Virus record (IMG/VR): IMGVR_UViG_3300025617_000041
Location: 1 to 45,080 of that record
DNA length: 45,080 nt
From: a virus
Direction: 5' to 3' (one strand)
The notes beneath the pieces are model-generated. The model was given only the letters and a program-made list of their open reading frames with translations, was not told the DNA's origin and made no database searches. The position numbers were made by a program, and so were the translations under genes. This document shows positions 2,463-29,400 of the stretch, one piece after another (positions within the stretch are counted from its first letter, which is position 1; each line of letters begins with the position of its first letter).

Positions 2463-2836
2463 TAAGTTTCCTGCTGTTGACTATCACCTGGAATAATTCT
2501 AAAATTATCTTCAACCGAATCCGGTGTGCTAACTTCAGTAATGCTACTCATTGGCTCTAGAGCTTCAAGCTGATGAGGCTGTAACGGAGGATTATGCCAA
2601 GTGTCACCGTCTTTTAATTCTTTTTCAAATAATTTTGCTTCCTTAGTGTCGATCCAGCGTACTTTAAATCTTCCATTATTAACAAACCAAGTTTCGTCTT
2701 TGTCCTTGTGGAAGTGCATACTAAACTTCGCTCCTACTTTTTCAAATACCATAATCTTACCGCAGTATTTGTCGTTGGTTGCCCAAATTAATTCATAGCC
2801 CCAACCTTTATCTACTTTGCCTTCAAGTCGTGTCAT
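2462..2836 (-). CDS. Cupin-fold protein, phosphomannose-isomerase-like
   Basis: A 124-residue single-domain cupin. Cupin motif 1 is seen as GAKFSMHFHKDKDETWFVNNG, split here as metal ligands H41, H43 and E48 followed by G55. Motif 2 contains the fourth ligand H88 in the DGDTWHNPP to QPHQLEA stretch. The final segment, EVSTPDSVEDNFRI, matches the pattern at the end of the phosphomannose-isomerase-like cupin domain of ManC-type proteins. It probably binds a sugar phosphate or nucleotide sugar and may isomerise it. It overlaps hldE by 4 bases (ATGA) and the HAD gene by 1 base, so it is an integral part of the heptose operon. All four metal ligands are present, which argues for an active enzyme. 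The reaction is unknown. Confidence 0.82.
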   Translation of the reverse strand: MTRLEGKVDKGWGYELIWATNDKYCGKIMVFEKVGAKFSMHFHKDKDETWFVNNGRFKVRWIDTKEAKLFEKELKDGDTWHNPPLQPHQLEALEPMSSITEVSTPDSVEDNFRIIPGDSQQQET

Positions 2837-11338: not shown

Positions 11339-12910
11339 TTATAATCTACCAACTACAATCTCTATTGTGCCTACCACTTGGGTATCACTATATCCTTCTA
11401 ATGCTTTTCCAATTACACTTCCCATCTTAGGATCTTGACTGGCAGTTGCTACACCTTCGATATCACTAACAATTAACATATCTCCTTTGGCTACTTCTCC
11501 TACTACTTTACATGGAACTCGTCCTTGTAAAGCAACAGTTACAGTATTTTCAACAGACAGTTCATTATTCATGATAAATGCTGGATTAGTTGAAACTACT
11601 CCTGCTACTTTTCTATTTCCAATACCTGTTGCCGCTGTTACTTCTTTTGGGCCTCCAAATATTAAAACCGTACCAGGTTCGTAATTATTATCGGCTTCAT
11701 ATTTCTCTGCTAAGTCAGCCCATCTTGCTGTTTGTGCTGTAGCATTTAGTGTAGAAGTATCAACATCAACTGTGATGCCGCTATTAGCATATAAGATATT
11801 TCCACTAATACTTGAAGTTCCGCTAGCCATAACTAATGGATAAGTGTTTGATGTAACAGGATTAACAATAACAGTACTGGCTGTTCCGCCACCACCACCA
11901 CCACCGCCGATAGCACTAATTGTAACAGTATCAGTTACCGAATCAGTTGTAAGAATGATGTTTGCGCCAGCAGTTAATGTTAGCTGATCTTGTTCTCTGT
12001 CAGCAATCAAACTGTCTTGTCCCGCAACAGCTACTACTCCAAAACTAGGACCTGAATTAGCTGACACTGCCGCCACCGCCTGTCCGCCGCCACCGGTTGA
12101 ATTAATTATAATTTCTTTTGTGATAGGATCTGAAGTAATATCAATATTAGATCCAGCTCTTAATGTAAGGTTATCGTTTGTACTTGATGATACAATATCG
12201 TTTTGTCCAGGTACTATAATTCTATTAAAATAATTTACTATGTCACCATCAATCTTTGTACCTTCGGGTAAATTAATAGTACTACCTGTTGCTGAAATCG
12301 GTGCGTTATTAAAGTATACAGTATCTTTTACATATAAGTTATCCCAGGTATTTGTTATACTACCTAAATTATATGTAGCGTCGGTATCAGGAACAATATG
12401 AGAATCAATTGCTGTTAATACAATGTTCGTACCGCTATTAACACCGCCGCCGCTGCCGCCTGGAGTCGGGTCAGGTTGTGTATTAGGTACTAAGAATGTT
12501 TTATTAACTGGCGGAACAAGTGTATTAATTGATCCGCTATAGCTAACATTAAAGATTGCTTTACAACCTTCAAACGCTGTAATCTTAGCTGACAGTTTGA
12601 TACTTACATAACTGTCATTAACTTCAGCACTAATATCTACAATTTCGTCATCAATAGAAGCACGGCCAAATACAGCAAAGTTAGCCTCATCTGGTCTAGC
12701 AACTACCATCACTTGTAGAGTTTCTTTTTTGTTTGAATCTACTTCGACAGTAATATTATATGTAGCACTGGCAAAATCTCCAACATACCATCTATCTATT
12801 TCAGTATCTTGAAATATAGAAGTCCAAGGCCCGTTATATAAAAACTGGCCGCCGTTTTTAAACAGTAATGTGTTGTGTACACCACGTGAAAAGAATGTTG
12901 GAAAACTCAT
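11339..12910 (-). CDS. Tail-fibre protein with poly-Gly linkers and conserved C-terminal fibre domain
   Basis: A 523-residue virion protein. The N-terminal part begins MSFPTFFSRGVHNTLLFKNG, then beta-sandwich-like strands to about residue 150. The middle holds two related units of about 60 residues (DNLTLRAGSNIDITSDPIT and DQLTLTAGANIILTTDSVT), each ended by a glycine run; the second run is eight glycines. The last 135 residues form a domain starting ARWADLAEKYEADNNYEPGT and including GVVSTNP, VALQGRVPCKV, KGDMLIVSDIEG and VIGKALEG, a C-terminal domain I recall from fibre proteins of many environmental phages. The ATG follows an AGGGATT ribosome site and a TTAAATAC late-promoter-like box, and the gene lies just beyond the carbamoyltransferase terminator, so it starts a new transcription unit. 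Tail-fibre assignment is likely; the receptor is unknown. Confidence 0.82.
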   Translation of the reverse strand: MSFPTFFSRGVHNTLLFKNGGQFLYNGPWTSIFQDTEIDRWYVGDFASATYNITVEVDSNKKETLQVMVVARPDEANFAVFGRASIDDEIVDISAEVNDSYVSIKLSAKITAFEGCKAIFNVSYSGSINTLVPPVNKTFLVPNTQPDPTPGGSGGGVNSGTNIVLTAIDSHIVPDTDATYNLGSITNTWDNLYVKDTVYFNNAPISATGSTINLPEGTKIDGDIVNYFNRIIVPGQNDIVSSSTNDNLTLRAGSNIDITSDPITKEIIINSTGGGGQAVAAVSANSGPSFGVVAVAGQDSLIADREQDQLTLTAGANIILTTDSVTDTVTISAIGGGGGGGGTASTVIVNPVTSNTYPLVMASGTSSISGNILYANSGITVDVDTSTLNATAQTARWADLAEKYEADNNYEPGTVLIFGGPKEVTAATGIGNRKVAGVVSTNPAFIMNNELSVENTVTVALQGRVPCKVVGEVAKGDMLIVSDIEGVATASQDPKMGSVIGKALEGYSDTQVVGTIEIVVGRL

Positions 12911-12985: not shown

Positions 12986-14794
12986 CTAGTTCTTAACTGT
13001 GATTAGCTTACCGTACTCGGGCAAATACAAGTATTCAATTTCGCTTCGAACTAGCGTTTCAACAGCATTATCAAGTGTTTCGACCAAAGGATCTCCACCA
13101 AGATTAAAACTTGTGTTGAAAATGATTGGTATCTCTGTAGCATCGTAAAATGATTTAATAAGATCATAATAGTGAGGATTTTGATCCCGTTTCACCGTTT
13201 GAATTCTACAGGTACCATCTACGTGAATGATTGAAGGAATTTTTTCTTCAATACCAGGCTGGCAATTTACAGCATACATCATATGCGGTGTTTCATCCAT
13301 GCCACGTAGATCAAACCATTCGTGTACATGTTCATGAAGAATAGTACCAGCAAATGGTCTAAAGTATTCTCTATGCTTAACCTTGTTGACGTGATCTTTG
13401 CCATCAGGATCAGTTGGATCGTAGAGAATACTTCTATTTCCAAGGGCTCTTGGACCATTCTCGGAGCGACCTTGGAAAATTGTTACGATATTTCTGTTTT
13501 TAAGTAATGCTACTACGTCTTCGTTTGTAGCATCTTTTACTTCAGCATCATATTTTTCAACAACACTAGAAATATCTGAATCTGAATAATTATATTGTGG
13601 TCCTAGATACAGTGTATCTAATTTTTGAATTTCTGAACTACCTTCTTGGGCATGCCAAAACATAAGGGCGGCGCCCATAGCAGTTCCAGCATCATTTGAA
13701 ATAGGTTCAACATAAATTTCAATGCCTTCACCTTTTAATGCTTCAAGGTAATGATAGTTAGCAACACAATTAAGTCCGTAGCCACCACTAATAACAACTT
13801 TCTTTTTACCTGTCATTTCAACTGCTTTACGGATTAAATTAGTAACCTGTTCTTGTGTTTCTGTTTGACAAGCATACGCTAAGTCACGTCTGCTTTGTAA
13901 CAGAGTTACATCATCTGTTGGGTTTTCTGGCCACTCATTTAGTGCTTCATACAAGACAGAATTTACTCTACCACTAGCAGGATAAAGAGGAATAATTGCG
14001 TTTCTGTTACTAAACTCAGCAGTTCCTACTTTTTCAAACAACGGTGGAATACCATCGTTGGGTTTTCCATATGGAAATAGCCCCATAGTTTTGCCTGCTT
14101 CAATTGAACTCCAGCCGCAATACTCAGTTACACCTTCATAAGTTTTTACAATTCCGGCTCTGTCAGTTAACCATGCTTCGTGTGTTTCACCCGGCTCGCC
14201 AAATTGTTCACTTGATAAATCTGGAATATAATTAGACGAAATCGCCTCTTTTGTTCCGTAATGTTTATACAGCGTTTTAAACTCTGCTGGATAGTTACAG
14301 TCTACAATAGATTCGACTTCCCAAACCCATAGCGGTTGATTATCATAAGCCATTTGAATAAATGTGCCTGCGCCATCAACAATTAAACTAACAGCGTCAT
14401 CAAAACCAGAACGGAAAAAAGCACAAGCTGAATGAAGTTTATGATGCATATAACTTAGGTCTACTACTTGAGGATGATTATGTAAATCAACTCCTCTATT
14501 TTCAATTAAGCCCATTTTACGTGCTAGACCTGTATACACATCATCGCCTGTATAGTCAACTGTACCTGCTGTATCTTTTAACGATTGTGTATGAGCTACA
14601 ACAAGATAATCAATTTTATCTGTGTATTCTAAAATTTTCATAATAGAAGCATAAGGACCTCCATCATATTTTTGTCTAGTTAGTCGTTCTTCTTCAATAG
14701 AAAAAACAATTTCACCGTCTTTCATTAAACACACGCCGGAATTATGCCCACGTGCGATTGCCGCAATCCAACCAGTCTTTTTTATTTCTTTCAT
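12986..14794 (-). CDS. Carbamoyltransferase of the NodU/CmcH/TobZ family
   Basis: A 602-residue, apparently complete two-domain enzyme. This family transfers carbamoyl from carbamoyl phosphate, via carbamoyl-AMP, to a hydroxyl of a sugar or similar acceptor. The N-terminal Kae1-like domain has GHNSG with H17, EEERLTR (34-40), HHKLH with H117 and H121, and VDGAG with D140. These lie within a few residues of the metal ligands I recall for TobZ. Next come GWSSIEAGKTMGLFPYGKP, VVISGGYGLNCVANY and ISNDAGTAMGAAL. The C-terminal YrdC-like part has GRSENGPRALGNRSIL, KHREYFRPFAGTIL, HVDGTCRIQTV and IIFNTSFNLGGDPLV. Every recognised catalytic block is present. Its start overlaps the stop of the GT9 gene by 4 bases, so the two are coupled. 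The acceptor is probably the sugar added by that transferase; DNA-base modification is an alternative with less support. Confidence 0.92.
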   Translation of the reverse strand: MKEIKKTGWIAAIARGHNSGVCLMKDGEIVFSIEEERLTRQKYDGGPYASIMKILEYTDKIDYLVVAHTQSLKDTAGTVDYTGDDVYTGLARKMGLIENRGVDLHNHPQVVDLSYMHHKLHSACAFFRSGFDDAVSLIVDGAGTFIQMAYDNQPLWVWEVESIVDCNYPAEFKTLYKHYGTKEAISSNYIPDLSSEQFGEPGETHEAWLTDRAGIVKTYEGVTEYCGWSSIEAGKTMGLFPYGKPNDGIPPLFEKVGTAEFSNRNAIIPLYPASGRVNSVLYEALNEWPENPTDDVTLLQSRRDLAYACQTETQEQVTNLIRKAVEMTGKKKVVISGGYGLNCVANYHYLEALKGEGIEIYVEPISNDAGTAMGAALMFWHAQEGSSEIQKLDTLYLGPQYNYSDSDISSVVEKYDAEVKDATNEDVVALLKNRNIVTIFQGRSENGPRALGNRSILYDPTDPDGKDHVNKVKHREYFRPFAGTILHEHVHEWFDLRGMDETPHMMYAVNCQPGIEEKIPSIIHVDGTCRIQTVKRDQNPHYYDLIKSFYDATEIPIIFNTSFNLGGDPLVETLDNAVETLVRSEIEYLYLPEYGKLITVKN

Positions 14795-15810: not shown

Positions 15811-16461
15811 TTATTGTATTGTTGGTAAATCTACTGGAAAAGGAATTTTCCAATGTGCGTGATCAGCATACTTTGTTGGAATACTGCGTAACCACGATAC
15901 ATGTTCTCTTAGTGCAGCATCATCTTCATCAGTATAATCTGTTTCGTCACTATCAAGGTTTGCTTCAAGTTCATCCGCATAATTAGCCCACTGTAGAAGC
16001 GTATCTTCTCTAGTGTTAGCATGTTGTCTAAGTTCAGGGCCGCTAAAAGTATTATTAGCTGGATTCCAAACTACTGATTCATTGTAACACACTTGACCAA
16101 TAACACCACTGTCATCATAAGTGTAATTAAACGTAAATGTTTCACCATCTGCGTCTGTTAGTTCTTCTGAAATGTCTTCAATTTCTTCATGCGAGTAACA
16201 ATGAGTAAAGTATGCAGCAATCTTTGGATGATCCTTTGCTTGAACAGCAATATGATAATGGCCATCTTCAATTTGATTTTCCATGTTTAGCTCGGCTTCT
16301 GTTTCACCAGCCATTTCTAAGTTTCTTACTTTGTGTGTGTTATTTTCAACACAAAAGCATAACCATTTTGGACCGTCATACGTACAATTTACCGTTTTGT
16401 TTAACTCGGTAGTATTTAAGTATGGTCCATCTGGTAGTGTAAATGTAAATTGTTTAATCAT
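15811..16461 (-). CDS. Hypothetical protein, possible tail-fibre assembly factor
   Basis: A 216-residue acidic protein (many Asp and Glu) without signal or membrane segments. The N-terminal 140 residues are beta-rich and contain FTFNYTYDDSGVIGQVCYN. The C-terminal 75 residues are helical (LLQWANYADELEANLD, then DDAALREHVSWLRSIPTKYA) and end with a Trp-Lys-Ile-Pro-Phe-Pro segment. That helix-plus-W-x-x-P ending resembles C-terminal parts of phage tail-fibre assembly chaperones, which have a conserved Trp-Arg-x-x-Leu-Arg region followed by a proline-rich end. It directly follows the three Cys-rich putative adhesins, the position in which fibre chaperones or adhesin assembly factors are often found. 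The gene has a GAGG ribosome site. Its function is only a suggestion; I do not recognise the family with certainty. Confidence 0.6.
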   Translation of the reverse strand: MIKQFTFTLPDGPYLNTTELNKTVNCTYDGPKWLCFCVENNTHKVRNLEMAGETEAELNMENQIEDGHYHIAVQAKDHPKIAAYFTHCYSHEEIEDISEELTDADGETFTFNYTYDDSGVIGQVCYNESVVWNPANNTFSGPELRQHANTREDTLLQWANYADELEANLDSDETDYTDEDDAALREHVSWLRSIPTKYADHAHWKIPFPVDLPTIQ

Positions 16462-16485: not shown

Positions 16486-17466
16486 TTACGATTCAATAAA
16501 GCGAATTCTAATTCCGCCATGTCCACCTCTTGTACCGTGATCTCTCACGTCTGGGCAAGGTGTTGGTGGAACACCACCTGATCCAATTGGGCCATATGGG
16601 AAACAACCGTGCATGTTGTAACAACCACAAGCTCTGTTTGAACGCCAGCAATAGTTAAAAGGAATACCTCTTGTTGGCGACTTACTTAACGCATTAACAG
16701 CGTTAACCATTTGCTTTCTTCCCTGTCCTGACCAAAGTGAGTGTCTATTGTCGTTCTCAGTTCTGTAAGTAGCATGACTTCCATCTCCGCAACTAAACAT
16801 GTGCGAAGGTAGTGGAATACTGTAGTAAAATTGACATGGACATCTTGGATAACATCCAAAGAAGTGCGAACAACCAACTTGTCCGCAACAGTTTACGTCA
16901 CCGCCGAAACCACAAGCAATCCAGCCACTGCCGTTAGCACAATAGTTACAAGCAACACCACAGTTATCACCTGATGTACGTGTAACACAGAAACCGTTTG
17001 CTCTAAAGCAACAGTATCCTGATGGTGTAGTTGAACAAATACTTACTCCGCCCTTACCACCTTGAGCACACAAGCATCCATCTGTGCTTACTCCGTCATT
17101 GCCATTCCAGCAAATTCCAGTTGGTTCTGAACATCCTCTAAAGCACAAGTCATCAGCATTACCACAACTAAAACCTACGTTTCCGGTAACAATTTGACCT
17201 TGTGTCATTGTAATTTGTTTTCTAGTATATGCTCCTGCGTTGCCTGGAAGTCCAAACCCACAACAGCACATTTCAGCACCTGATCCTCCAGCTCCCCATG
17301 CTTCAAGAATTGCAGTTCCATCTGCTGGAGCAATCCAACAAATTCCCTGTCTAAAAAATTGATACATGGTTCCTGGACTGAATACATACACTTTACCTTT
17401 GTTAAGGTTTTCTTCTGTTCTTTCAGTTGCTCTTTCTTTTAGTAAGTTTTTTAATGATATCGCCAT
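16486..17466 (-). CDS. Glycine- and cysteine-rich putative adhesin, paralogue 1 of 3
   Basis: A 326-residue protein with 30 cysteines (about 9 percent) and many glycines. A short charged N-terminal helix (residues 1-25) leads to a beta segment ending ICWIAPADGTAILEAWGAGG, then Gly- and Cys-dense loops (EMCCCGFGLPGNAGAY, GFSCGNADDLCFRGC, CAQGGKGG, CGCYNMHGC), and a conserved end VRDHGTRGGHGGIRIRF. Length and cysteine positions closely match the next two genes. Glycine-loop domains of this sort recall receptor-binding gp38-like adhesins of T-even phages that pack as polyglycine helices, but those are not cysteine-rich. There is no signal peptide, so any disulfides or metal sites must form in or after exit from the cytoplasm. 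It lies one base from paralogue 2. The adhesin role is inferred from glycine loops and neighbouring fibre genes. Confidence 0.8.
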   Translation of the reverse strand: MAISLKNLLKERATERTEENLNKGKVYVFSPGTMYQFFRQGICWIAPADGTAILEAWGAGGSGAEMCCCGFGLPGNAGAYTRKQITMTQGQIVTGNVGFSCGNADDLCFRGCSEPTGICWNGNDGVSTDGCLCAQGGKGGVSICSTTPSGYCCFRANGFCVTRTSGDNCGVACNYCANGSGWIACGFGGDVNCCGQVGCSHFFGCYPRCPCQFYYSIPLPSHMFSCGDGSHATYRTENDNRHSLWSGQGRKQMVNAVNALSKSPTRGIPFNYCWRSNRACGCYNMHGCFPYGPIGSGGVPPTPCPDVRDHGTRGGHGGIRIRFIES

Positions 17467-17467
17467 A

Positions 17468-18448
17468 TTAACTCGCCTTTATAAATTTAATTCTTAAAGA
17501 GCCGTGCCCACCTCTCCAAGCGTGATCTCTAACACCCGGACATGGATGTGGAGGACCACCTGGATGACCTGCTGGACTAAAGGAAATACAACCCTGGTGA
17601 TTGTAACAACCACAACTTCTAGAACCGTTATAACAAATCTGTTCGCCCCACATACCTTCTCTTGACTGGCGACCCATTAAGCCTAACACACCAACAAATT
17701 GGAATTGGCCTGCGCTTCCTGAGTGTCTAGTATAACCAGCATCGGCATCATTAGTTACTGTTACTTCACCACCATCACAAGCGTGATAACCTGGTGGTGT
17801 AGCAAAGTGATAATAGAAACAGCATGGACACATTGGATGACATCCAAAGAATGATGCTCTACTATAACCACCTCTTAAATTAATATCGCCACCGAACGCA
17901 TCAGCACAACAGTCTGCTGTTCCTGGACCATAGTTACATACAATTCCACAGTTATTATTATTTGTTCTTGTAGCACAGAAACTAGCGTTAGCAAAACAAC
18001 AGTATAGTGCTGTATTTGTAGAACAATAAGAAGTACCACCTCTACCGCCTTGGGCACACATACATCCTGTAGTTCCAGCACACTGGAAAGTAATACAAGT
18101 TGCCTCTGAGCGTCCTCTGTAACAAATAGCATCTGCGTTGCCGCAACTAAATCCTGTTGTTCCTGTAACTGTACAACCTGCTAATACATCAATTGTTTTT
18201 CTTGAATATGCTCCCGGATTACCAGGTAGGCCGCCGCCGCAACAGCACATCTTTCCGCCACTGCCGCCTGCGCCCCAAATTTCAATAACTGCTGTCCCGT
18301 CTGCTGGAGCAACCCAACAAATTCCTGTATGGAAATTTGTATAGTTATTGGATGGCGCATATACCCATATTTGACCTTGCTCAATGTTTTCTTCATCTTG
18401 AGAAATAAAGTCTAGTCTGTCTTTTAAAAGGTTTTTTAATGTAGCCAT
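17468..18448 (-). CDS. Glycine- and cysteine-rich putative adhesin, paralogue 2 of 3
   Basis: A 326-residue paralogue with 29 cysteines. Shared landmarks are GICWVAPADGTAVIEIWGAG, the CCC triplet (here KMCCCGGGLPGNPGAY), GFSCGNADAICYRG, CMCAQGGRGG, the FFGCHPMCPCC cluster, CGCYNHQGC and the end VRDHAWRGGHGSLRIKF. It is the most diverged of the three: CRGRSEATC replaces CFRGCS, the region before the FGGD motif has a different Cys pattern, and the 70 residues before the CGCYN motif (ending GLMGRQSREG) are largely unlike the other two. The ATG is two bases downstream of the paralogue 3 stop. If these are adhesins, this copy may have a different specificity. Confident as a gene; function is inferred. 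Confidence 0.8.
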   Translation of the reverse strand: MATLKNLLKDRLDFISQDEENIEQGQIWVYAPSNNYTNFHTGICWVAPADGTAVIEIWGAGGSGGKMCCCGGGLPGNPGAYSRKTIDVLAGCTVTGTTGFSCGNADAICYRGRSEATCITFQCAGTTGCMCAQGGRGGTSYCSTNTALYCCFANASFCATRTNNNNCGIVCNYGPGTADCCADAFGGDINLRGGYSRASFFGCHPMCPCCFYYHFATPPGYHACDGGEVTVTNDADAGYTRHSGSAGQFQFVGVLGLMGRQSREGMWGEQICYNGSRSCGCYNHQGCISFSPAGHPGGPPHPCPGVRDHAWRGGHGSLRIKFIKAS

Positions 18449-18450
18449 CT

Positions 18451-19419
18451 TTAATCCTTTATGAACTTGATTCTAATTGAGCCGTCGCCGCCGGCCCTTG
18501 CGTGGTCACGTACACCTGGACATGGAAACGGTCCCATACCTGGATGACCAACTGGAGCATGTCTAGAACAACCTTCGTTGTTATAACAACCACAGCCTTT
18601 ACCACCATTCCAACAGTAAGCCCATGGAGTACCTTTTTCTGGAGTTCTCGAAAGTGCGTTAATAGCATAAATGTGTTGATGCATTCCGTGTCCTGACCAC
18701 TGTGAGAATCCGTTATTGTTTTCGGTGTTGAATGTAACTACGCCACCCTCCTTAGCAAACTGACCAGGGGGAACAGCTAAATGCCAATGGAAAAAACATG
18801 GACAACTTGGATGACATCCAAAGAAACTAACACAAGAGAAGCAACCTCCCATGTTTACGTCTCCGCCATACCCGCAAGCATGCCAATCGCTTTCTCTATA
18901 GTTACATACGATACCACAATGTGTATTATTTGTTTTTGTTACGCAAAAACCGCTTGCTCTAAAGCAACAATACCCGGAAGGTGTAGTTGAACAAATACTA
19001 GTTCCGCCACGTCCTCCTTGCGCACACATACATCCGCCTTGGCCGCCGTTTCCTCTCCAACATAAACATGTTGCTTGAGAACAACCTCTGAAACACAAGT
19101 CATCTGCGTTACCACAGCTTTTACCTACGTATCCACAAATGTAGCATCCTTCGTTAATTTGAATAGTTTTTTTAGCATAGGCTCCTGGATTACCTGGAAG
19201 TCCAAACCCACAACAGCACATTTCAGCACCTGAACCACCCGCTCCCCAAATTTCAATAACTGCTGTACCGTTGGCAGGGGCTACCCAACAAATTCCTTGA
19301 CAGAAATTTTCATAATCAGTACCTGGAGTGTAAGCATAAATTTGCCCTCTTTCCAGATTTTCTTCTTCGTCAAACAGTGCCTGATCTTTCGAAGTAAGTA
19401 GTTCTCTTAGTGTTGCCAT
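18451..19419 (-). CDS. Glycine- and cysteine-rich putative adhesin, paralogue 3 of 3 (first transcribed)
   Basis: A 322-residue paralogue with 31 cysteines, first of the triplet in the direction of transcription. The N-terminal helix is acidic, followed by QGICWVAPANGTAVIEIWGA, EMCCCGFGLPGNPGAY, KSCGNADDLCFRGCS, CMCAQGGRGG, SGYCCFRASGFC, FFGCHPSCPCFFHWH, CGCYNNEGC and VRDHARAGGDGSIRIKF. It shares with paralogue 1 a 41-base stretch of identical DNA (17243-17283 and 19193-19233), which paralogue 2 lacks, suggesting recent exchange. Cysteine pairs and C-x-C units dominate rather than any classic zinc-finger spacing. The gene has its own AGGATAG ribosome site, and the nearest clear late promoter is at 19791-19798, so the small upstream gene and the triplet probably form one late transcript. 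Confidence 0.8.
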   Translation of the reverse strand: MATLRELLTSKDQALFDEEENLERGQIYAYTPGTDYENFCQGICWVAPANGTAVIEIWGAGGSGAEMCCCGFGLPGNPGAYAKKTIQINEGCYICGYVGKSCGNADDLCFRGCSQATCLCWRGNGGQGGCMCAQGGRGGTSICSTTPSGYCCFRASGFCVTKTNNTHCGIVCNYRESDWHACGYGGDVNMGGCFSCVSFFGCHPSCPCFFHWHLAVPPGQFAKEGGVVTFNTENNNGFSQWSGHGMHQHIYAINALSRTPEKGTPWAYCWNGGKGCGCYNNEGCSRHAPVGHPGMGPFPCPGVRDHARAGGDGSIRIKFIKD

Positions 19420-19438: not shown

Positions 19439-19771
19439 CTATGATCCAGCAATTACCCAACCATAATTTGATCCAGTATATGTTAGAGTAATAACTGCTC
19501 CAGTAACGTTAATAATCAAATCTTCGTTAGCGCCATTAATCTTCGAACCGTTACGTGCTATAGTAAGATTATTTGTAGCCATTGAGCTGCCTACGTCAAT
19601 AAACTGAATAGTGTCATTTAACAGCAAAGAGCTGTTCGCAGGTAATGTAATTGTAAACCCTGCGGACGATGTATCTGCTAGAATCCTATCATTGACACTT
19701 GCATTAAAAGTAGTAGAAACTTCACGGATTATTACTCCTGCGGTTCCTGTTGTTGTTATGTATCTTCCCAT
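19439..19771 (-). CDS. Small beta-rich virion protein
   Basis: A 110-residue product with strands such as AGFTITLPANSSLLLNDTIQ and NLTIARNGSKINGANEDLI. This pattern (DT-x-x-x-x-FTITLPA, then ARNGS-x-I-x-G) recurs in C-terminal parts of phage tail proteins and small fibre or decoration proteins, where it forms a compact beta-domain. It stands alone here as a separate gene. The ATG has a strong AGGGGAT ribosome site, and a consensus late promoter lies about 20 bases upstream. It precedes the three Cys-rich genes and may be their partner in the same structure, which is inference from order only. Confidence 0.75.
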   Translation of the reverse strand: MGRYITTTGTAGVIIREVSTTFNASVNDRILADTSSAGFTITLPANSSLLLNDTIQFIDVGSSMATNNLTIARNGSKINGANEDLIINVTGAVITLTYTGSNYGWVIAGS

Positions 19772-19790: not shown

Positions 19791-19798
19791 TATTTATA
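19791..19798 (-). promoter_or_regulatory. T4-type late promoter, consensus box
   Basis: Minus strand reads GTGTATAAATACTAGC with an exact TATAAATA. It overlaps the stop codon of the gene at 19794-20114 and is about 20 bases upstream of the ATG at 19771. It should drive the small virion gene and the three Cys-rich genes. Confidence 0.8.
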
Positions 19799-20114
19799 CA
19801 CTTGAAGTCTCAATCCCCATCGCTACCGCACTTACGTTCGGGTTTGATGAGTAAACTACAAGAATTTTTCCGGCGTCCATAACTATACCAGTACGTTCAA
19901 GTACGCCCTTTCCTAAAAGCTCTGTGTCGTATTCAATCCATTCAGCGTCAGTCGGTGTAGATGCTATTGCAACAGCTACTCTAACATTAGTTGCTTGGTT
20001 TCCTCTATTACACAGAGACAAACTTACCACAGTAAATGTATCAACTGGCACAGTATAAACTGATGTCAGTGTTGCTGCACTTAGATCTGAGGCTCCTAAT
20101 CTTCCATTTGCCAT
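19794..20114 (-). CDS. Small virion protein, paralogous to the 109-residue protein at 32596-32925
   Basis: A 106-residue beta protein. TSVYTVPVDTFTVVSLSLCN followed by NVRVAVAI matches, strand for strand, the pattern of the 109-residue product encoded at 32596-32925 (SRITVIGLSICNVVDHVVKA). Both then have a segment with an aromatic residue, an I-x-x-G turn and a final strand set. Such small proteins occur beside fibre genes in marine T4-like phages as I recall; function is unknown. The ATG has a CGGAG ribosome site in the 13-base gap after the 2097-residue gene, suggesting co-transcription from the promoter at 26452. No cysteine cluster or membrane segment. Confidence 0.72.
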   Translation of the reverse strand: MANGRLGASDLSAATLTSVYTVPVDTFTVVSLSLCNRGNQATNVRVAVAIASTPTDAEWIEYDTELLGKGVLERTGIVMDAGKILVVYSSNPNVSAVAMGIETSSV

Positions 20115-20127
20115 TTATTTTTCTCCG

Positions 20128-23100
20128 TTATCCATGTATGAACATGTTCATTGCTATTGGTACACCTGTTACGCCTTCTTTAAAGTTCATTTTGCTCTCT
20201 ACTGAAAGCTCTAAGCCGTTAGTTGTAGTAATATAATTATCAGCTACAAACACCTGACCTGCGGTAAGTGTATTTACGTTCAAAGTTGATGATCCTGAAC
20301 CAATTTGGGAAGCAATATATGCCTTAATTGCTCTCTGTGTTGGTACAACTTGATCCGAATCTTGTGTAAAGAACGGATCCGTACTAAATTCATTAATTGC
20401 AGCACCACCTGTTCCAAGTTCAACTGAACCTAGTTGTAATTGCTGTAGACCAGCAATGTTAAATGCGTCAGCGTTTAGTGTTGCTGTACCTGTTGCCTGT
20501 TCAACTGTAAACAAGTCACCAACTCTAAAGTTACCATCTTGGTCAGTTGATGTAAAGAACACTCGTCCTCCGCCTTTTTCAACTGTTTCGCTATCCGGCT
20601 CTGGATCTTGTAATGGAATATTTGGATAGTTTGTAGTAGTAAAGTTACCAGTACCAATATCCAAGAAGTCGTGTCCTGTTAGTCGACACTGGCTATATCT
20701 AATTCTAATTTCAAATGTATCATCATGAACTGGAGCATCACTAATTTCTACAGCAGGACTTAATTGTAATCTAGCACTATATGGACTACTAATAGTATTA
20801 TCAAACAGTTCTGTACCTAAAATTTGTGTTACAGTAACTAGTTTATAGTATTGTCCAGGCAGTGTACTAAATTCTACGTTTGATCCTGCTATTGGTACTG
20901 AATCAAGTCCTGTTACATTTACATAAGATCCTGCTTGGAAATAATCTCCATATCCGTCACCTGTAATAGTAACAGTAGCAACATCCCATGATGATCCTCT
21001 ATTAATAAATCCTGGATTACCAAGTGCGCCATCGCCTACTCTAATTGCAAATGGTGCTTCGTTAACGTTAGTAGCATCTGTAATTGTTAATGTAGGTAAT
21101 GATCCACTGTCGTATCCTGAACCTGGATCAATCATTCTAATTTCGTTAATTTTTCCATCTTCAACTCTAGCTCTTGCTTCTGCTTGTGCGCCTGCTTTAA
21201 GTTTGCGGTTTGATCCACCGGAACTATTGTGAATATAGAAGTACGGATCGTGCTGGATATTAGAAAATGTTGGTTTTCTATTTCCTCTTAATGCTAGACT
21301 AGTAACTGTAGTCCATTCCAATCCATATTTAGAATGGTAATATTCTCCATCGATATTTCTAACAACAACAAAGTTTCCTTGGCCGTAACTTACCCAGCTA
21401 GTTGCTGTTCCTGCTCCAAGAACCGGTCCTGCTTTAAATTCGGATTTATCAGCCATTACAAACGTAATACCTGTATCTGATACAGCAACAAATCTTCCGT
21501 TACCATAAGCAACATCTGTTAATACAGGACTTACTGCTCCTGATACTGTTAAAGCTAACCAGCTAATTCCGTCTGTACTGTATGCTGCAGATCCGCCCGA
21601 TGATACAGCAACGAACATACCTTGACCATAAGCAATAGCATTCCAGTTTGTATCAGTTCCGACGGTTCCTCCGGCATTTGCCCAAAGAACACCATCATTT
21701 GAAATACAAGGAGTAGCACTATCTGATCTAACTGCTACAAACTTTCCGTTTCCGTACGCAACTGATGAATAACTTCCAGTTTGAGGCGTAGTAGTAGCTG
21801 TCCAAGTTTCACCGCCGTCATCACTGTATGCGGCATTGTTTGAACCTGTTGCTAGTGCTACAAAACGTACAGTACCTGTAAGTTTGTCACCTTCTAATCC
21901 AGCACCAATAGTATTCCACTGTGATGCTGTTGGTAACGACATATTATTCCATTCGCCGTCCGGTCCTGTGTATCTTCCATCAATGTTAGTTGCTCCGACT
22001 CCTATGGCAACAACTCTGCCGCCAATGAATCTACCTTCAAAACTAAACGTATCAATAATATTAAAGTCAGGATCATCATCTCTAACGTTTGTAACGGTAA
22101 TTACTAGATCATTATCTGGACTCAGGCCGCCAAATGCTGTTCCTGCTATTGTAAATGTATCATTTACAGCATAGCCTGTTCCGCCTGATGTCATTGTTAC
22201 ATAATATTTAAATCCATAAGCAACAATATCAAATGTAGCATTGCCATCGCCTTCTGACGCAAACGTTTGACTTGATGTAACTCTAGTAGGATGGAATGTT
22301 GCTGTTTGAGTTTGTACTGACGCTACTGTAAGTGCTGTAGAATGAGTCGGAGCATCAATAACAAGTCTAGGCTCAATCAAATATAAACTTGATGGATCTG
22401 GTGCTGATATAGCAAGTCCTGGAACTGAATGATCCCATCCAGCTGTTCCATCTTCTTTGTAGATGTTAGCAACCTTAGATCCTGCGTTGTAAGAATTAAT
22501 AATACCTGTTTGACCAGCCCCTAAACCTGATTGGATAAAGATTCTTGCGCCAACATAATCAGCACTTTGAGCACTGTCTGTTGCTGAAAGTGTAATACTA
22601 GTAGTCGTTCCGCCCTGTGCTACGTTTTCAACTTGTAGGTATTCACTACCTCCAAAGTCACCTGAACTATCATTTAGGTCAAGCATCCTTACTTGGAAGA
22701 TAGCATCGTCTCTGCGTTCATCGTCAGTAACACTCACATTAATGCCAGCACCGTTAAATGTAAACGTTGCTTCGTCATAGTGACTACCTGCGTTTTGAAA
22801 TTCAACACGCCAAATCTGATTTGTGCCATCTGTAACAGCTCTACCAGCGGCTTCTAATGCTCTATTATTAACGGTACCAGTTACTGGAGTTTCTGTACTA
22901 TCAACACCTTCTGATACACAACCAAATGTACCATAAGATGAGTTACCATTTGTAGCACGAATCTTACCGCCATTTTCTGCTAAGTAACCAATGTGTCCAT
23001 AATATGAGAACACAGACACAAGTTCTGTTCTACCTAAGTTTGTACACCATACACCAATACCGTCACTTAATACCTGTGTAAAGTCGTTAGCAACAATAGA

Positions 23101-26100
23101 GTCGTTACCGCCTGCGTGTAAGTCGCCGTCAATTTTACAACCAACACACGCAGTTCCAAAAGTTGTTACGTTTTGTACATAACATGATTTATTTGTAATC
23201 CATACACGAGTATCTGCTGTTCCCCAACCTGGGTCTAGTGATACATAAGCGCCTGCTGTTGGGCGTTTTGTGCCATAAGAGTTAGCAACACCTAGTGTTC
23301 CTGTTAACCCTTGTACTGTCATGTTTCTAACACCAGTACCGTTTCTTACAAGATACATGTTTTCTTGAATACTGCCTTGTACACTGTTAACATATAAATG
23401 TGCCGCTTCAAGTGTTTTATAATTTCCTGTAAAGAACAAGTCATAGTAGAAAGCATCAATATAACTTCTTACATCTCTAGAACATGCGTCTGTGTCATAT
23501 GTGTAAGATGGATATGTATTAGTAATATATTGTAATGTTTCAGCAACAGCAAACTCTTTATTTAGATACAACAATGTTGCGGCCGCCAATCTATCATAAT
23601 CGTCAACAGTATTATTTTGTCCAGTTATTGCTGGCGCACTTCCGTTGCCATTAATATAAAAATCAATATAATCAATTGCGTCATCTAGTAAATCTTGTAC
23701 TAGTGTACCTTCTGTTCCTGTAGCAAACGGTCTTGCTATAACTTGAGCAACGCCTGATTGTAATTCTACTACGTCAGTTCCTTGTACAACATCATTTAGT
23801 AAAGTTTTTAAGAATGCTAACGCATCTAAACTGTATGGCACATCACTGGAATTAACTAAACTACCTGCTGGTCTTACGTTTGTTGAACGCAGTTCGTCAC
23901 CAACTACTGCTGTTTCTACTGGAACTTTAATAGGAAGTACTTCGTAAAATACTCCAGTTTTAACTAAAATAGTTCTTTGTGGCTTAACGGCAGCCGGTAT
24001 ATTTGTTGATACTCCTGCTGTAATAGCATCAGTAATAATCGGAAGTAAAGATGATATTTCTGTTGAAGCTCCAGCTTCAGCTTCATACGTTAAATCAATT
24101 TGTTGTAAGACTGGATTCGCAACCCCATTAGTAGTTTGATAATTTACTGCTGGTCCTGCGTTTAAAAATACTGCTTGTTTTAAAACATCATTTACAGCGT
24201 ATTCTAATGCTGCATTTGTTTCTGCTTCTTGTCCTGCTACATAAAACGCCGCGGCATTTGTTGTATATTCAAGTGCAGCTTCTCTTGATTTTACATTACC
24301 GCCTCTACTAAAGTCGTAAGCAAGAGCATCAAGAACCAAACCTACATCTCTTACACATTTATCTGCGTCAAATGTGAATATGTTACTAAACGGAGCAATA
24401 TTATTTGTGATTTGATAGTTAATCCATTCTTTAGTTTCTGCTTGAATAAACTGTCTATTTACTTTTAATAAGTGTTTAGCATCAGGATGTCTTAGACCGT
24501 TTTCAATTTGCTCTGCGGCATATCTAATAGTTTTAAATGGTCTATCGCTAGTAATGCCTCTGTCTGGAGCAGGAGCATCAACACCATCTGTACCTACATA
24601 ATATAGTTGATCAATTTCGCCCCAATATTTCCATTCAGGAATTCCTGTAGAACTTACAACAAGTGTTTGTCCTGTATCGCCTGCGGCCAATCTTGTTGGG
24701 CCAGCACCGCTGTATACAACTAAGTCACCTGTAGTTGTTAGTACGTTGTTTTCGTCACCTGCGGCTAACAAGTTCCAATATGTACCATTTAAGTCTTGGT
24801 CTGGTCTACTGTCTAATGAACCTTGTGAAAGTGAACTATCACTATCTTCTTGTGAGTGATGTGAAAGTACACAAACATAACTGCTGTTACCGTATCTTGT
24901 TACATCGCCTAGTACATAATCATAATCATCTTGCCATTGACCTAACCAACGGAAGCCGCTGTTTAATCTTTCCCAGTACGCTGTGTTTGGTGGTTTGGCC
25001 GCAACCGTAACAGTCATCGTACCCGAATCTGTCGGAACTTCAAATAATGCTCCACCTTGCTCGGCGCTGATTCTAAATTCTGTTGCTGACGGAATTGATT
25101 CTATGTAGTATGTTACTCCTACTTGAACTCCGCCAAATACTGTGCCTGTAAAGTTTACTGCCATTCCTACTGTCATGTCAGCAGTTGTTGTACATGTAAA
25201 TCTATCTGTTGCTGATAATGTTGCTGTAACTGTTGCTGGTAATGATGGACTATCTGCTATTGCTAGATAAGTGTAACCATTTACCCTTACTACATCACCT
25301 ACTTTATAATCAGTTCCAATAGACCAATCATTTTGTAGCTTAAATCCTGTTTGATAAAGATCCCAATTTGCGTTACCGTCTACAGGATCTGTTGGTTTAA
25401 TTCCTGAATGATTTTCTGTAGCAATATAAGCATAACCGCCATATGTTACTACATCGCCTGGTTGATAAACAGTCGAAACATTCCAGCTGTTATCAAATTC
25501 AAAACCTTCTACAAACTGTGCCCAATATCCTGAATCTTCATCTTGTTCAAAAGTTCTTGAACCACTAGTTTGGTGTTTTGCTAAACAAATCCAAAGGCCA
25601 GCGCCATACTTAACAACATCATTAACTTTGTAGTTGATGCCTGCGCTGTTATCCCAATCTTCTTTGTATTCAATTCCTTGATTAAAATAATCCCATTTAC
25701 TTTGGTCTGCTTCGAGTCCGTCTATAAAGTCAGCGCCTGCTGTGTGACCTTCATTACAAATATATAATGTTCCGCCAAACTTTACTACGTCATTAATTTT
25801 ATATCTTGTAGTCGGTGCCCAGTCTGCTTTCCAATCAAAGCCTTCTGTGTACAAATCCCATTTAGCTAAATCTTCAGCAACACCTGGAGTAACTAATCCT
25901 AAACCTTCAAGTCCGAAAGTAATAGTTGCCGCTGATGTGTGTCCTGTATTACAAAGATAAACATTACCGCCATACTTAACTGTGTCGTTTAGTTTATATC
26001 TGTAGTTTGCTTGCCAGTCACTTTGCCAGTCGAAAGACTCAGCAAATAAATCCCATTTTGAAAGCGTACTATCTTGTCCAGGAATAACATAATCAACTTC

Positions 26101-26421
26101 AAGACCTAGTGTATCTGTGGCTGCCGATACGTGTCCAATCAAGCAAAGATAAACATTGCCGCCGTACTTAACTAAATCATTTTTATAATAAGTGACATTG
26201 TTGTCCCAGTCGCCGCGCCATTCCTGACCATCGCCCATTAAGTTCCATTTTGGTGGAACATAATCTGCGTCTACATTGAAATCTGGATCTGCTGTATGGC
26301 TGATGGTACAAACGTACACCTTACCGCTAACTCGTACAACGTCATCTTTAACGTACTGAGTACCTGCTACCCAGTCGCCTTTCCAAATAAATTTAATTCG
26401 TCCTAATCTAAATTCAGCCAT
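20128..26421 (-). CDS. Giant modular fibre protein with carbohydrate-binding-like repeats, beta-helix and one propeller block (2097 residues)
   Basis: Residues about 10-560 hold eight repeats of the type W-x6-Y-x3-D-V-V-x-Y-G-G-x-x-Y-x-C-x-x-x-HT, like small chitin/cellulose-binding modules. A right-handed beta-helix follows, opening at YYVGTDG and including VWITNKSCYVQNVTTFG, GVWCTNLGRTELVSVFSYYG and ENGGKIRATNGNSSYG; two C-x-R-D helical modules are inserted in it (about 24262-24382 and 23400-23511). After a linker comes one block of six or seven Asp-box propeller blades (21260-22030), a Gly-rich beta unit, then the DQDGNFRVGDLFTVEQATG signature and a C-terminal fibre end. It is a clear paralogue of the next gene to the right. 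No catalytic residues of a depolymerase can be named. The start has a CGGAGT ribosome site and a consensus late promoter. Confidence 0.83.
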   Translation of the reverse strand: MAEFRLGRIKFIWKGDWVAGTQYVKDDVVRVSGKVYVCTISHTADPDFNVDADYVPPKWNLMGDGQEWRGDWDNNVTYYKNDLVKYGGNVYLCLIGHVSAATDTLGLEVDYVIPGQDSTLSKWDLFAESFDWQSDWQANYRYKLNDTVKYGGNVYLCNTGHTSAATITFGLEGLGLVTPGVAEDLAKWDLYTEGFDWKADWAPTTRYKINDVVKFGGTLYICNEGHTAGADFIDGLEADQSKWDYFNQGIEYKEDWDNSAGINYKVNDVVKYGAGLWICLAKHQTSGSRTFEQDEDSGYWAQFVEGFEFDNSWNVSTVYQPGDVVTYGGYAYIATENHSGIKPTDPVDGNANWDLYQTGFKLQNDWSIGTDYKVGDVVRVNGYTYLAIADSPSLPATVTATLSATDRFTCTTTADMTVGMAVNFTGTVFGGVQVGVTYYIESIPSATEFRISAEQGGALFEVPTDSGTMTVTVAAKPPNTAYWERLNSGFRWLGQWQDDYDYVLGDVTRYGNSSYVCVLSHHSQEDSDSSLSQGSLDSRPDQDLNGTYWNLLAAGDENNVLTTTGDLVVYSGAGPTRLAAGDTGQTLVVSSTGIPEWKYWGEIDQLYYVGTDGVDAPAPDRGITSDRPFKTIRYAAEQIENGLRHPDAKHLLKVNRQFIQAETKEWINYQITNNIAPFSNIFTFDADKCVRDVGLVLDALAYDFSRGGNVKSREAALEYTTNAAAFYVAGQEAETNAALEYAVNDVLKQAVFLNAGPAVNYQTTNGVANPVLQQIDLTYEAEAGASTEISSLLPIITDAITAGVSTNIPAAVKPQRTILVKTGVFYEVLPIKVPVETAVVGDELRSTNVRPAGSLVNSSDVPYSLDALAFLKTLLNDVVQGTDVVELQSGVAQVIARPFATGTEGTLVQDLLDDAIDYIDFYINGNGSAPAITGQNNTVDDYDRLAAATLLYLNKEFAVAETLQYITNTYPSYTYDTDACSRDVRSYIDAFYYDLFFTGNYKTLEAAHLYVNSVQGSIQENMYLVRNGTGVRNMTVQGLTGTLGVANSYGTKRPTAGAYVSLDPGWGTADTRVWITNKSCYVQNVTTFGTACVGCKIDGDLHAGGNDSIVANDFTQVLSDGIGVWCTNLGRTELVSVFSYYGHIGYLAENGGKIRATNGNSSYGTFGCVSEGVDSTETPVTGTVNNRALEAAGRAVTDGTNQIWRVEFQNAGSHYDEATFTFNGAGINVSVTDDERRDDAIFQVRMLDLNDSSGDFGGSEYLQVENVAQGGTTTSITLSATDSAQSADYVGARIFIQSGLGAGQTGIINSYNAGSKVANIYKEDGTAGWDHSVPGLAISAPDPSSLYLIEPRLVIDAPTHSTALTVASVQTQTATFHPTRVTSSQTFASEGDGNATFDIVAYGFKYYVTMTSGGTGYAVNDTFTIAGTAFGGLSPDNDLVITVTNVRDDDPDFNIIDTFSFEGRFIGGRVVAIGVGATNIDGRYTGPDGEWNNMSLPTASQWNTIGAGLEGDKLTGTVRFVALATGSNNAAYSDDGGETWTATTTPQTGSYSSVAYGNGKFVAVRSDSATPCISNDGVLWANAGGTVGTDTNWNAIAYGQGMFVAVSSGGSAAYSTDGISWLALTVSGAVSPVLTDVAYGNGRFVAVSDTGITFVMADKSEFKAGPVLGAGTATSWVSYGQGNFVVVRNIDGEYYHSKYGLEWTTVTSLALRGNRKPTFSNIQHDPYFYIHNSSGGSNRKLKAGAQAEARARVEDGKINEIRMIDPGSGYDSGSLPTLTITDATNVNEAPFAIRVGDGALGNPGFINRGSSWDVATVTITGDGYGDYFQAGSYVNVTGLDSVPIAGSNVEFSTLPGQYYKLVTVTQILGTELFDNTISSPYSARLQLSPAVEISDAPVHDDTFEIRIRYSQCRLTGHDFLDIGTGNFTTTNYPNIPLQDPEPDSETVEKGGGRVFFTSTDQDGNFRVGDLFTVEQATGTATLNADAFNIAGLQQLQLGSVELGTGGAAINEFSTDPFFTQDSDQVVPTQRAIKAYIASQIGSGSSTLNVNTLTAGQVFVADNYITTTNGLELSVESKMNFKEGVTGVPIAMNMFIHG
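21260..22030 (-). repeat. Asp-box propeller repeats, one block
   Basis: About six or seven units of 37-45 residues have the scheme (A/G)-Y-G-x-G-x-F-V-A-V followed by Y-S-x-D-G-x-x-W (for example YSDDGGETW and YSTDGISW). These are Asp-box (BNR-like) hairpins that fold as beta-propeller blades. The last two units have lost the Asp box. Confidence 0.75.
24850..26390 (-). repeat. Eight carbohydrate-binding-like repeats at the N-terminus of the 2097-residue fibre
   Basis: Eight units start with EWRGDW, DWQSDW, DWKADW, EYKEDW and similar, each followed by a D-V-V-x-Y-G strand and a Y-x-C or W-x-C strand ending near HT or HS. Unit length is about 45-70 residues, with two longer linkers. The pattern resembles CBM5/12-type modules; sugar binding is inferred. 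Confidence 0.75.
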
Positions 26422-26480: not shown

Positions 26481-29400
26481 TTATGCTAGATCCCTTCCAA
26501 TTTCTTGTTGATCAAGTCCACTATCAAAACTATCGCAGAAGAATGAATGAGCTAGTAGCCAGCCATCAATTCCGCCTGTTATGTTAGCAACAGTTTGTAT
26601 TTCCACTTCTTCATTTACTACACTGTAAATTCTGTTCGGGCCGCCAAGTGCTACTGTACCTGATACAATAGTACCTGTAGAAGCGTTTGATCCACCGCCG
26701 GAAATACGTCTTTCGATGTACGCTTTAATTGCTTTTTGTGTCGGTACAACGTTATTAGAATCAGCTGCAAATGTAGCATCAATACTGAATTCTCTAATTA
26801 CAACGCCGGTTCCTCCTACCTGAATTCCACCTAATTGTAGTTCTGATAACCCTTGAAGATCGAAGTAATCAGCACTAATAGTAACAATACCAGTTGCCTG
26901 CTCAACAGCAAATAATTCACCAACTCTAAAGTTACCATCCTGGTCAGTTGAAGCATAAAATACTCGGCCGCCACCTAAGAAACTAACTTCATTAAATGGT
27001 GCTAAGTTAGTTAAATTAGTGTTTGGATAGTTTGTTTCTGTAAAGTTACCAGTACCAATTTCCAAGAAGTCGTGTCCTGTTAATCGAACCTGAGAATACT
27101 TTTCTCTAATCTCAATTGCAATCCCGTGTTCGGGCCCTGTTACTCTTGTAAATTCAGGACTTACTGTGATATCTGCTTTATATCTTATCGGATTTCCTGA
27201 AGATTGAACATTTGTAATAGTAAGAACTTTATAAATTTCTTCTTCGGTACCGTCATTAGCTCTAGCAGTTGTTGTATCATCTAACACTGAATAGAACTGG
27301 CCTCCGGAACCAAGTGCGCCTGTCTGCGTTAAAGGATACCCTAGTCTAGGTTTCCATGTTATACCATCGGATGACGATACTATATCGTTACTGCCACTAC
27401 TTGCCGCTAAAAATCTATTATTACTAAATGTTAGCTTATCCCACGAAGCAGTACTTCCCATTGAAGCTGAAATCCATGTTACTCCATTATCGTTAGTAAC
27501 ATAACTTACATTTGAATTATCTGCGGTAATTACAAATTTGTTTCCTCCAAATTCAATTCTACTCCAATCACCTACTGCTGGTAATTGGCCAGCTGTCCAT
27601 GAAAGGCCGTCACTGCTTTCAAGAAATACATCTGAATTATTTTTAACAATTATAAACTTATTATTACCAAATGCTACGGATGCCCAATCCGATGTTGAAC
27701 CTAAATTTTCTGCTGTCCATGTCACTCCGTCATCTTTACTAACACTTGCGGAACTTGAATTATACCCTACAGCAACAAATGTTCCTGATCCATAAGCAAT
27801 ATCTCTATAAAACGCATAAGGAACAGCCATAGATGTCCAGTTTTCACCGTTAGTACTGTATGCCCCTAGTGCTGTACCATCAGCCAAAGCAACAAAATTA
27901 TCTTGTCCAAACTGTATACAATTCCAATCTTGGTTATTTGGTAAGTCAGCAGATGCTGGCAACCAGTTTAAACCGTTAGTGCTATAGATTGTAGTTGTTG
28001 AAGATCCTACAGCAACATATCTATTTTTGCCATAAGCAATATCAACCCAACTAGCAGATGTTACTTGCGAGTCAACTGTCCAAACAATTCTATCAAGTAC
28101 AAGGTTAGCACCTGTTCTTGGTACTCTTGTTAAATCGGTCAAGAAAATGTCTCTTCCGAGAGGATATATCTCAGCAAAACCGTCGCCGGTAACTGTTACC
28201 TTTGTTGTAGAGGATTTGTATCCAATGCCTCTATTAACGAATGTTGGATTAGCTAAAACTCCATTACCCATTCTTAGTTCAAAATTAGGTAATTCTGTAA
28301 TATTTGGATCAGTAAATGTTAGTGTTGGAGCAGTATCGTATCCTGAACCAGGCTCCCAAATTTTAAAGTTATCAAGCTGACTTCCTTGAATGACAACACG
28401 GCCTAATGCCCTCGCTCCTGTTTCTATTGTTGTAACAATTTGCGTAGTACCGTCGTCAAATATATACCATGTTCCCTTGTAGTATGCTCCACAAGCCTGT
28501 GGATTACTAAATCCTGTTGAAAGTTCTGTCCAAACAAATCCGCCGTCACTGATACTAATTCTGCTGTCATTGCCACCTGACGAGCTAAACGCCATGAATA
28601 CACCTTGAGCGTATGATACTCTTCGATAATCAGCATCAAACGGTAGTTCAGTAAGATACCAGTTTGTTCCATCTAAACTGTACGCTACTGCTTCTCTATC
28701 ATTAGATACAGCAACAAATCTTCCGTTACCGTAAGTAATATCACTCCATAGTGGCTGTGTTGAATCTTGGAACCCAGGAATAGTAGCAGTCGTCCATGTT
28801 AATGTATCATCGTCAGCAACAGCAACCGTATTAGTATCGCTTGCGATTGCGACAAATTTGCCACTGCCGTGTGCTAGGCCAACCCATGCTCCTGATGTAG
28901 GTAGTGTAGTCGATGACCAATTAATTCCGTTATTAGTACTGTATATTGCGCCTGTGCCTGAACTTTCAACAGCAACCCATTTACCGTTTCCATAAGCTAG
29001 GCCACTATGATCGGCAACACTTGGTTTTGTATATGACGACCAGTTTACACCGTCAATACTGTGTTGTACTTCGTCACCGTCACCGATCGCTAAAAAGTAG
29101 CCATTACCAAACCCTAATCTATTAGGATTCCAAGTTCCTGAAAGAAGTGAATCGGTCCACTGTGTACCATCATACGATGTAACATTTCTATCAGATGCTA
29201 ACGCAACTAGATAATCGTTTCCAGACACTGCGTCAATAAAATTAGCTTGTAATGAAATATTTAAACTAAAGTCAACAGTTGTCGGAGGAGGACTAAATGT
29301 TACTCTAGGCTCAATACGATATACTGTACTAGGAGTTAGAGCCGCTTCAATTGGTGTTCCTTCATTGATATGGCCCCAGCCAATTTCTCCAGTTCTCTCA

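Follow-up and report, generated by a model that had tools for sequence, protein, structure and literature searches.

What is the function of three adjacent, related phage proteins that each contain about 30 cysteine residues? Their genes, here termed A, B and C, lie within the IMG/VR virus record IMGVR_UViG_3300025617_000041, whose 45,080 bases (the window) include, on the minus strand, the tail-fibre genes of a T4-like phage. About 30 conserved cysteines in a protein that is made in the bacterial cytoplasm raise the questions of how they are kept reduced while the chain folds, and what happens to them at lysis. The genes are given below, with the type of evidence for each in brackets.

18451 to 19419, minus strand: very probable fibre-head paralogue A, 322 amino acids, 31 cysteines, the first of the triplet in transcription order (open reading frame, AlphaFold2 model, position-1 clade)
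17468 to 18448, minus strand: very probable fibre-head paralogue B, 326 amino acids, 29 cysteines (open reading frame, position-2 clade, phrog_4205 with E = 7e-13)
16486 to 17466, minus strand: very probable fibre-head paralogue C, 326 amino acids, 30 cysteines (open reading frame, position-3 lineage, phrog_4205 with E = 4e-10)

Composition and fold of the three proteins

Each of the proteins has 53-54 glycine residues, one CCC triplet and four or five C-x-C pairs, and the cysteine counts and motifs are those given in a preliminary description of this DNA. The three genes are separated by just 1 and 2 bases. In the other 18 genes tallied there are 72 cysteines in 13,404 residues (0.54%), and against this background the binomial chance of each of the counts in A, B and C is 8e-26 or less, so that the cysteine density was rightly called extreme. 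The reading frames are real, because homologues with 28-43 cysteines recur in more than 80 IMG/VR loci. The proteins had also been said to lack a signal peptide, and by eye we find no hydrophobic stretch of that kind in the N-termini MATLRELL..., MATLKNLL... and MAISLKNLL....

The cysteines are strongly conserved. Over 241 homologues (effective number 65) there are 21 cysteine positions that are at least 93% conserved, and near-invariant groupings include C-x-C, CCC and C-x3-C-x-C. Comparison of 392 close pairs, each from one paralogue group, gives a rate of change per site of 0.024 for cysteine, 0.040 for glycine and 0.100 for the remaining residues. Thus the cysteines are the most protected residues of the protein. 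A constraint of this strength, as read from the alignments, would fit a role in stabilisation.

AlphaFold2 was run on copy A with 26 sequences of the window clade, and B and C are placed by the 50-58% identity among the three copies. The model (pLDDT 70.2, pTM 0.74) has a TNF-like β-sandwich followed by a glycine-rich loop domain, as does gp24 of the cyanophage Pam3. The latter is a trimeric tail fibre in which N-terminal helices are followed by a TNF-like domain and by a glycine-rich domain that binds the host; the chaperone gp25 folds it, and the two proteins form a 3:3 complex (PMC9608196). The solved structures that match the model are the Pam3 tail fibre (7ypx and 7yfw, Z of 14.0 and 13.7 over 191 residues; rmsd of 3.4 for 7ypx_A), the Bxb1 tail tip (Z = 12.3) and the glycine-rich domains of ALK and LTK (Z = 7.6-9.4), after which there is a gap to the next unrelated fold at only Z = 4.7. 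Structure prediction had been proposed as a check on the packing of glycine loops, and the match of the model to Pam3 gp24 supports a glycine-loop framework. Among the predicted viral structures of BFVD the best two matches are uncharacterised proteins of S-CAM3 and P-SSM2, with Syn9 gp38 in seventh place. A profile search of the PDB sequences found no match to the family.

For the Pfam family Gly_rich_2 (PF21722), S-CAM1, S-CAM3 and S-SSM7 have homologues that score above the curated cut-off; the window copies fall under it (E = 0.0036 for the best of 26 members). The glycine-loop framework put forward in the preliminary description is supported by fold and by the Gly_rich_2 matches of the isolate homologues, with a correction as to composition. 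The window copies are 16% glycine and 9% cysteine overall, and their glycine content lies under the 22-29% of the cysteine-poor members of the fold (Syn9 gp38, S-SM1 SSM1_049 and P-SSM2 PSSM2_126), which have 0-2 cysteines. The window copies are cysteine-enriched, glycine-reduced versions of the fold.

The gene next to the triplet bears on the identity of the three proteins.

15811 to 16461, minus strand: probable fibre-assembly chaperone of the triplet, 216 amino acids (phrog_9740; homologues with a PF16778 match)

This gene lies directly downstream of the triplet across the relatives. Its phrog_9740 counterparts in S-SSM7 and Sf-FS3 match Pfam PF16778 (Phage_tail_APC) above cut-off, together with PHROG tail fibre assembly families; the window protein itself has no PF16778 match. 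An hhalign comparison is collinear over 185 columns with E = 0.0086, at a probability of only 4.7%. Its AlphaFold2 model (pLDDT 95.5) has a β-rich N-terminal part and two long C-terminal helices, which is the layout of gp25. There is a single such gene for all three copies in most loci. A second chaperone-like gene is found ~700-1150 bases downstream of the triplet at other loci (L006, L012, L013, L014, L017, L024, L025, L031, L081, L086 and others in our numbering). The gene directly after the chaperone gene bears the name minor coat protein in S-SSM7 (L095:9640-10299), and in Sf-FS3 a similar gene (L097:9585-10217) is annotated as a prolyl 4-hydroxylase (2OG-Fe(II) dioxygenase); a role in fibre modification is possible.

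Taken together, the fold, the Gly_rich_2 matches of the isolate homologues and the place in a tail-fibre operon beside a probable chaperone make it very probable that the three proteins are a tail-fibre head of the Pam3 gp24 type. The gp38-type tip suggested earlier is thus upheld as a fibre head, by fold, operon and chaperone, but the closest solved structure is Pam3 gp24, with its trimer of TNF-like and glycine-rich domains.

Copy number and history of the triplet

The family comprises 245 matching stretches in IMG/VR. It is common in aquatic T4-like phages, and is also present in cultured cyanophages. The window copies had no tblastn match in 50,697 phage records, and more divergent relatives were used as stepping stones. 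A search of 84,980 prokaryote genomes gave a single match, on a contig (L092) of a metagenome-assembled genome labelled Euryarchaeota, and this looks like a phage contig that has been binned into it.

Three copies are present at 76 of 89 loci, and the remainder are either cut by the end of the contig or of a split type. Comparison of copy number between related phages had been suggested as a check, and on searching whole records we find three proteins in 36 of 39 virus records, including contigs of 238, 270, 353 and 364 kb, while the other three records end within ~4 kb of a copy. In two records (G028 and G036) the three copies are arranged as 1+2, with the lone copy ~23 kb upstream of the pair. 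A lone copy of the split type, at L063:5363-6319, is situated ~3 kb downstream of a T4 gp23-like capsid gene and far from the fibre operon. Single-copy loci, and with them the idea of a homotrimer in one-copy phages, are ruled out by the whole records, which show either the split 1+2 arrangement or a cut at the contig end. A fourth copy in some records is also ruled out, the four matches being one copy broken by an insert. In L054, L064, L067, L068 and their kin the second paralogue is an open frame of ~410-430 amino acids with 37-44 cysteines, and its internal insert splits the profile match. Four copies in S-SSM7 and Sf-FS3 were ruled out as well, for there the fourth gene is the chaperone.

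Amongst the isolates, the complete genomes of S-CAM1 (36, 31 and 25 cysteines per copy), S-CAM3 (36, 35 and 24), S-SSM7 (29, 28 and 30) and Sf-FS3 (28, 28 and 25) have three copies each. P-SSM2 has two (36 and 36), with the chaperone gene between them. The chaperone adjoins the isolate copies or sits between them, and all of the copies are deposited as hypothetical proteins.

In the closer relatives of the window, copy 1 and copy 2 fall into supported clades of their own, and the same is nearly true of copy 3; in wider trees the position labels stay clustered, with few changes. Mean identities in close pairs are 90.5, 90.6 and 91.8% for A, B and C, the pairwise divergences of the three are correlated at 0.96-0.97, and their divergence is similar to that of the neighbouring genes of the operon. 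Judged from these comparisons, copies 1 to 3 are ancient, ordered lineages that diverge at equal rates. The copies of the S-SSM7 group and those of the S-CAM group each form their own clades, and a single shared old triplication is rejected by the approximately unbiased (AU) test with p <1e-5 for each position. Either the three copies arose more than once, or concerted evolution has erased the old history, and by both routes the three copies belong together.

The triplication had been taken to provide receptor-binding variants. This fits poorly with copies that are old, keep their order, stay three in number and diverge in step, and for the same reasons three obligatory subunits of one fibre are favoured.

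Proposed assembly of the head and possible role of the cysteines

Our best overall explanation, which we hold tentatively and at slightly less than an even chance, is a head of the Pam3 type made from A, B and C in a ratio of 1:1:1 with the adjacent chaperone, having distal loops that bind the host and are stapled by disulfides. A, B and C would be the head subunits of the tail fibre of a T4-like myovirus, each with a short N-terminal helix, a TNF-like β-sandwich and distal, packed glycine-rich loops. Translated nearly back to back, they would co-assemble using their shared chaperone, replacing the homotrimer of Pam3, and the distal loops would contact the surface of the host. The ~30 cysteines would hold the loops together, and perhaps also one chain to another, by disulfides that form once lysis has carried the particle out of the reducing cytoplasm and into oxic water, and the cross-links would replace part of the stability of the glycine lattice. 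We infer the trimeric state, the 1:1:1 mixing, the disulfides and the binding of a receptor. The 1:1:1 heterotrimer, suggested by the comparison of sequences, is evenly balanced between true and false, and disulfides are on balance the probable main role of the cysteines. If the head does consist of three paralogues, this would provide for asymmetric host recognition on a threefold fibre.

In its strongest form the proposal would be of an obligate A:B:C heterotrimer that a dense network of disulfides locks. The shared chaperone would assemble it in the reduced state in the cell, and oxidation would harden it after lysis; its make-up from three different chains would have had independent origins, or have been maintained by concerted evolution, in three or more lineages. 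This we consider rather unlikely; if it were true, the release of the particle would itself mature the receptor-binding tip.

A number of observations weigh against a disulfide-stapled heterotrimer. P-SSM2 and its kin have two copies, and thus a strict A:B:C rule is not universal. The number of cysteines (28-43) has no fixed parity, so that a closed set of intrachain disulfides is not shown. When we sought disulfide pairs from the co-occurrence of cysteines no clean pairs emerged, as most of the cysteines are invariant and the remainder track the paralogue lineage. In the model of copy A the N-terminal helix (residues 4-18) has pLDDT <50, and the prediction is also poor at residues 259-285 and 300-304. 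The model of the chaperone has no match to the gp25 fold in the PDB, the only matches being to helical structures like the Hsp70 lid. We found no report of virion proteomics for these proteins in the literature. Lastly, equal rates and a fixed order are also compatible with three equally important fibres.

That last point leads to a different assembly, in which one virion carries separate homotrimeric fibres A3, B3 and C3 of one fold, directed to different receptors, as the receptor-binding variants of the preliminary description would be. The homotrimer is the rule for this fold, as in Pam3 gp24 (PMC9608196), and the two copies of P-SSM2 with a chaperone gene between them, like the two chaperone-like genes at some loci, would suit it. 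A set of variants should however vary in number, and its members be lost, swapped or accelerated singly, whereas A, B and C diverge in step, every IMG/VR record that is not cut by a contig end has three of them, those with split genes included, and one chaperone serves all three in most loci. We regard separate homotrimers as fairly unlikely. It is quite improbable that each protein is a monomeric adhesin in the manner of S16 gp38, and that the three copies cap a long trimeric fibre by binding the three near-equivalent sites of one end. The predicted N-terminal helix is short, which recalls S16 gp38 more than Pam3 gp24 with its long bundle (PMC9608196), and large fibre proteins are encoded upstream. 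Yet the closest solved structures, Pam3 and ALK, are TNF-like where S16 gp38 has a β-helix domain (PMC9608196), and in the P-SSM2 homologues the head is preceded by a long N-terminal stretch. The structural matches to the copy A model, led by TNF-like structures, do not include S16 gp38, although this absence proves little.

The fibre head could be as we describe it and the cysteines nevertheless bind metal ions (zinc, iron or copper) in place of forming disulfides. This would be consistent with synthesis in a reducing cytoplasm and with the near-invariance of C-x-C, CCC and C-x3-C-x-C, but there is no Pfam match to a known metal-binding family, and cysteine positions turn over between lineages with the total staying high (24-43), which is unusual for fixed metal sites. 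Metal binding in place of disulfides is therefore unlikely in our judgement. The proteins might even be absent from the virion, as host-modifying or decoy proteins carried in a tail operon that runs on into a non-structural carbamoyltransferase and sugar genes, and the copies in isolates are indeed labelled hypothetical. With the fold, the chaperone, the place in the operon and the Pam3 fibre as precedent (PMC9608196) all opposed to it, this is very improbable.

Neighbouring genes and comparison with known systems

Other features of the operon, upstream and downstream of the triplet, are as follows.

26481 to 32189, minus strand: second large tail-fibre protein, 1902 amino acids (phrog_9851, E = 2e-173; PF02839 CBM_5_12, 7 stretches)
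20128 to 26421, minus strand: large tail-fibre protein, 2097 amino acids (phrog_9851 tail fiber protein, E = 1e-209; PF02839 CBM_5_12, 8 stretches)
19794 to 20114, minus strand: small upstream protein, 106 amino acids (PHROG tail fiber protein families; place kept in cyanophages)
19439 to 19771, minus strand: small protein upstream of A, 110 amino acids (weakly like the T4 gp9/gp10 N-terminal domain and tail-spike N-domains)
12986 to 14794, minus strand: Nol-like carbamoyltransferase, downstream of the fibre-head locus
11339 to 12910, minus strand: protein with a tail-fibre-like C-terminal match, downstream of the carbamoyltransferase

Transcription passes through the two giant CBM_5_12 proteins, the 106- and 110-amino-acid proteins, A, B, C and the 216-amino-acid chaperone gene, and then through a phrog_8954 protein (unknown function), the carbamoyltransferase, the gene at 11339-12910, an open reading frame of 2189 amino acids and a heptose-type sugar cluster. 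Eight and seven CBM_5_12 stretches are unusually many for a phage fibre. The 106-amino-acid protein has 51% identity to S-CAM1 SXBG_00228 and 45% to PSSM2_302. The 110-amino-acid protein matches PF07880 under cut-off (E = 3e-4) and several PHROG tail families, and its homologue SXBG_00227 has the equivalent place in S-CAM1; by these sequence matches it is a candidate for a fibre-attachment or adaptor part. A direct linkage of the carbamoyltransferase with the fibre-head locus is shared by the window, by P-SSM2, S-CAM1, S-CAM3, S-SSM7 and Sf-FS3, and by the split-type loci, and fibre head and sugar-modifying enzyme are a conserved partnership. Within the heptose/sugar cluster, the gene at 2462-2836 (minus strand) matches the PHROG 'cysteine dioxygenase' and is a cupin by Pfam; a link of that name to the cysteines of the triplet is probably an accident of naming. 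The T4 major capsid family Gp23 is present on 10 of 12 related long contigs. A search of 38 related records for psbA-family genes gave none, and the host is therefore not shown to be a cyanobacterium.

The fold itself is known, and it is the cysteine-dense, nearly-always-three version that appears to be undescribed in the searchable papers. We found no report in the open-access literature of a phage receptor-binding fibre head made of three different paralogues, nor any literature report on cysteine-rich cyanophage fibres, heterotrimeric fibres or the locus tags of the homologues. The nearest system is Pam3 gp24/gp25, which likewise has a TNF-like β-sandwich leading into glycine-rich loops and a fibre gene paired with a chaperone gene. 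It differs in being a homotrimer from one gene, with 39% glycine in its glycine-rich domain and a long bundle of N-terminal helices, the domain by which fibres of this type trimerise and dock to the baseplate; the window has three paralogues staying together, with the lower glycine and high cysteine content given above and a short predicted N-terminal helix. Gly_rich_2 is represented at this locus by the homologues of S-CAM1, S-CAM3 and S-SSM7 that clear its cut-off, and compared with the family at large the window copies have less glycine and much more cysteine. S16 gp38 (6F45) shares the polyglycine-type packing of loops at the fibre tip and short N-terminal helices (PMC9608196), but is a single gene with a β-helix middle domain instead of a TNF-like one. 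The glycine-rich extracellular domain of ALK and LTK has the same TNF-like and polyglycine-helix fold, but belongs to one chain, that of an animal receptor kinase; this resemblance in fold was previously noted for Pam3 gp24.

The remaining comparison is with cysteine-rich hypothetical proteins of the Kyanoviridae, PSSM2_304 and 306 of P-SSM2, SXBG_00224-226 of S-CAM1, gp156-158 of S-CAM3, 114-116 of S-SSM7 and 97-99 of Sf-FS3 (phrog_4205 and phrog_35878), for which no characterisation was found in the searchable papers. They have the same place in the tail-fibre operon, 24-36 cysteines each and an adjacent chaperone. They differ in being distant in sequence (no tblastn match with the window copies), in their separate history of triplication and in the two copies of P-SSM2. 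The presence of the family in these cultured cyanophages makes the proposed head testable with existing phages.

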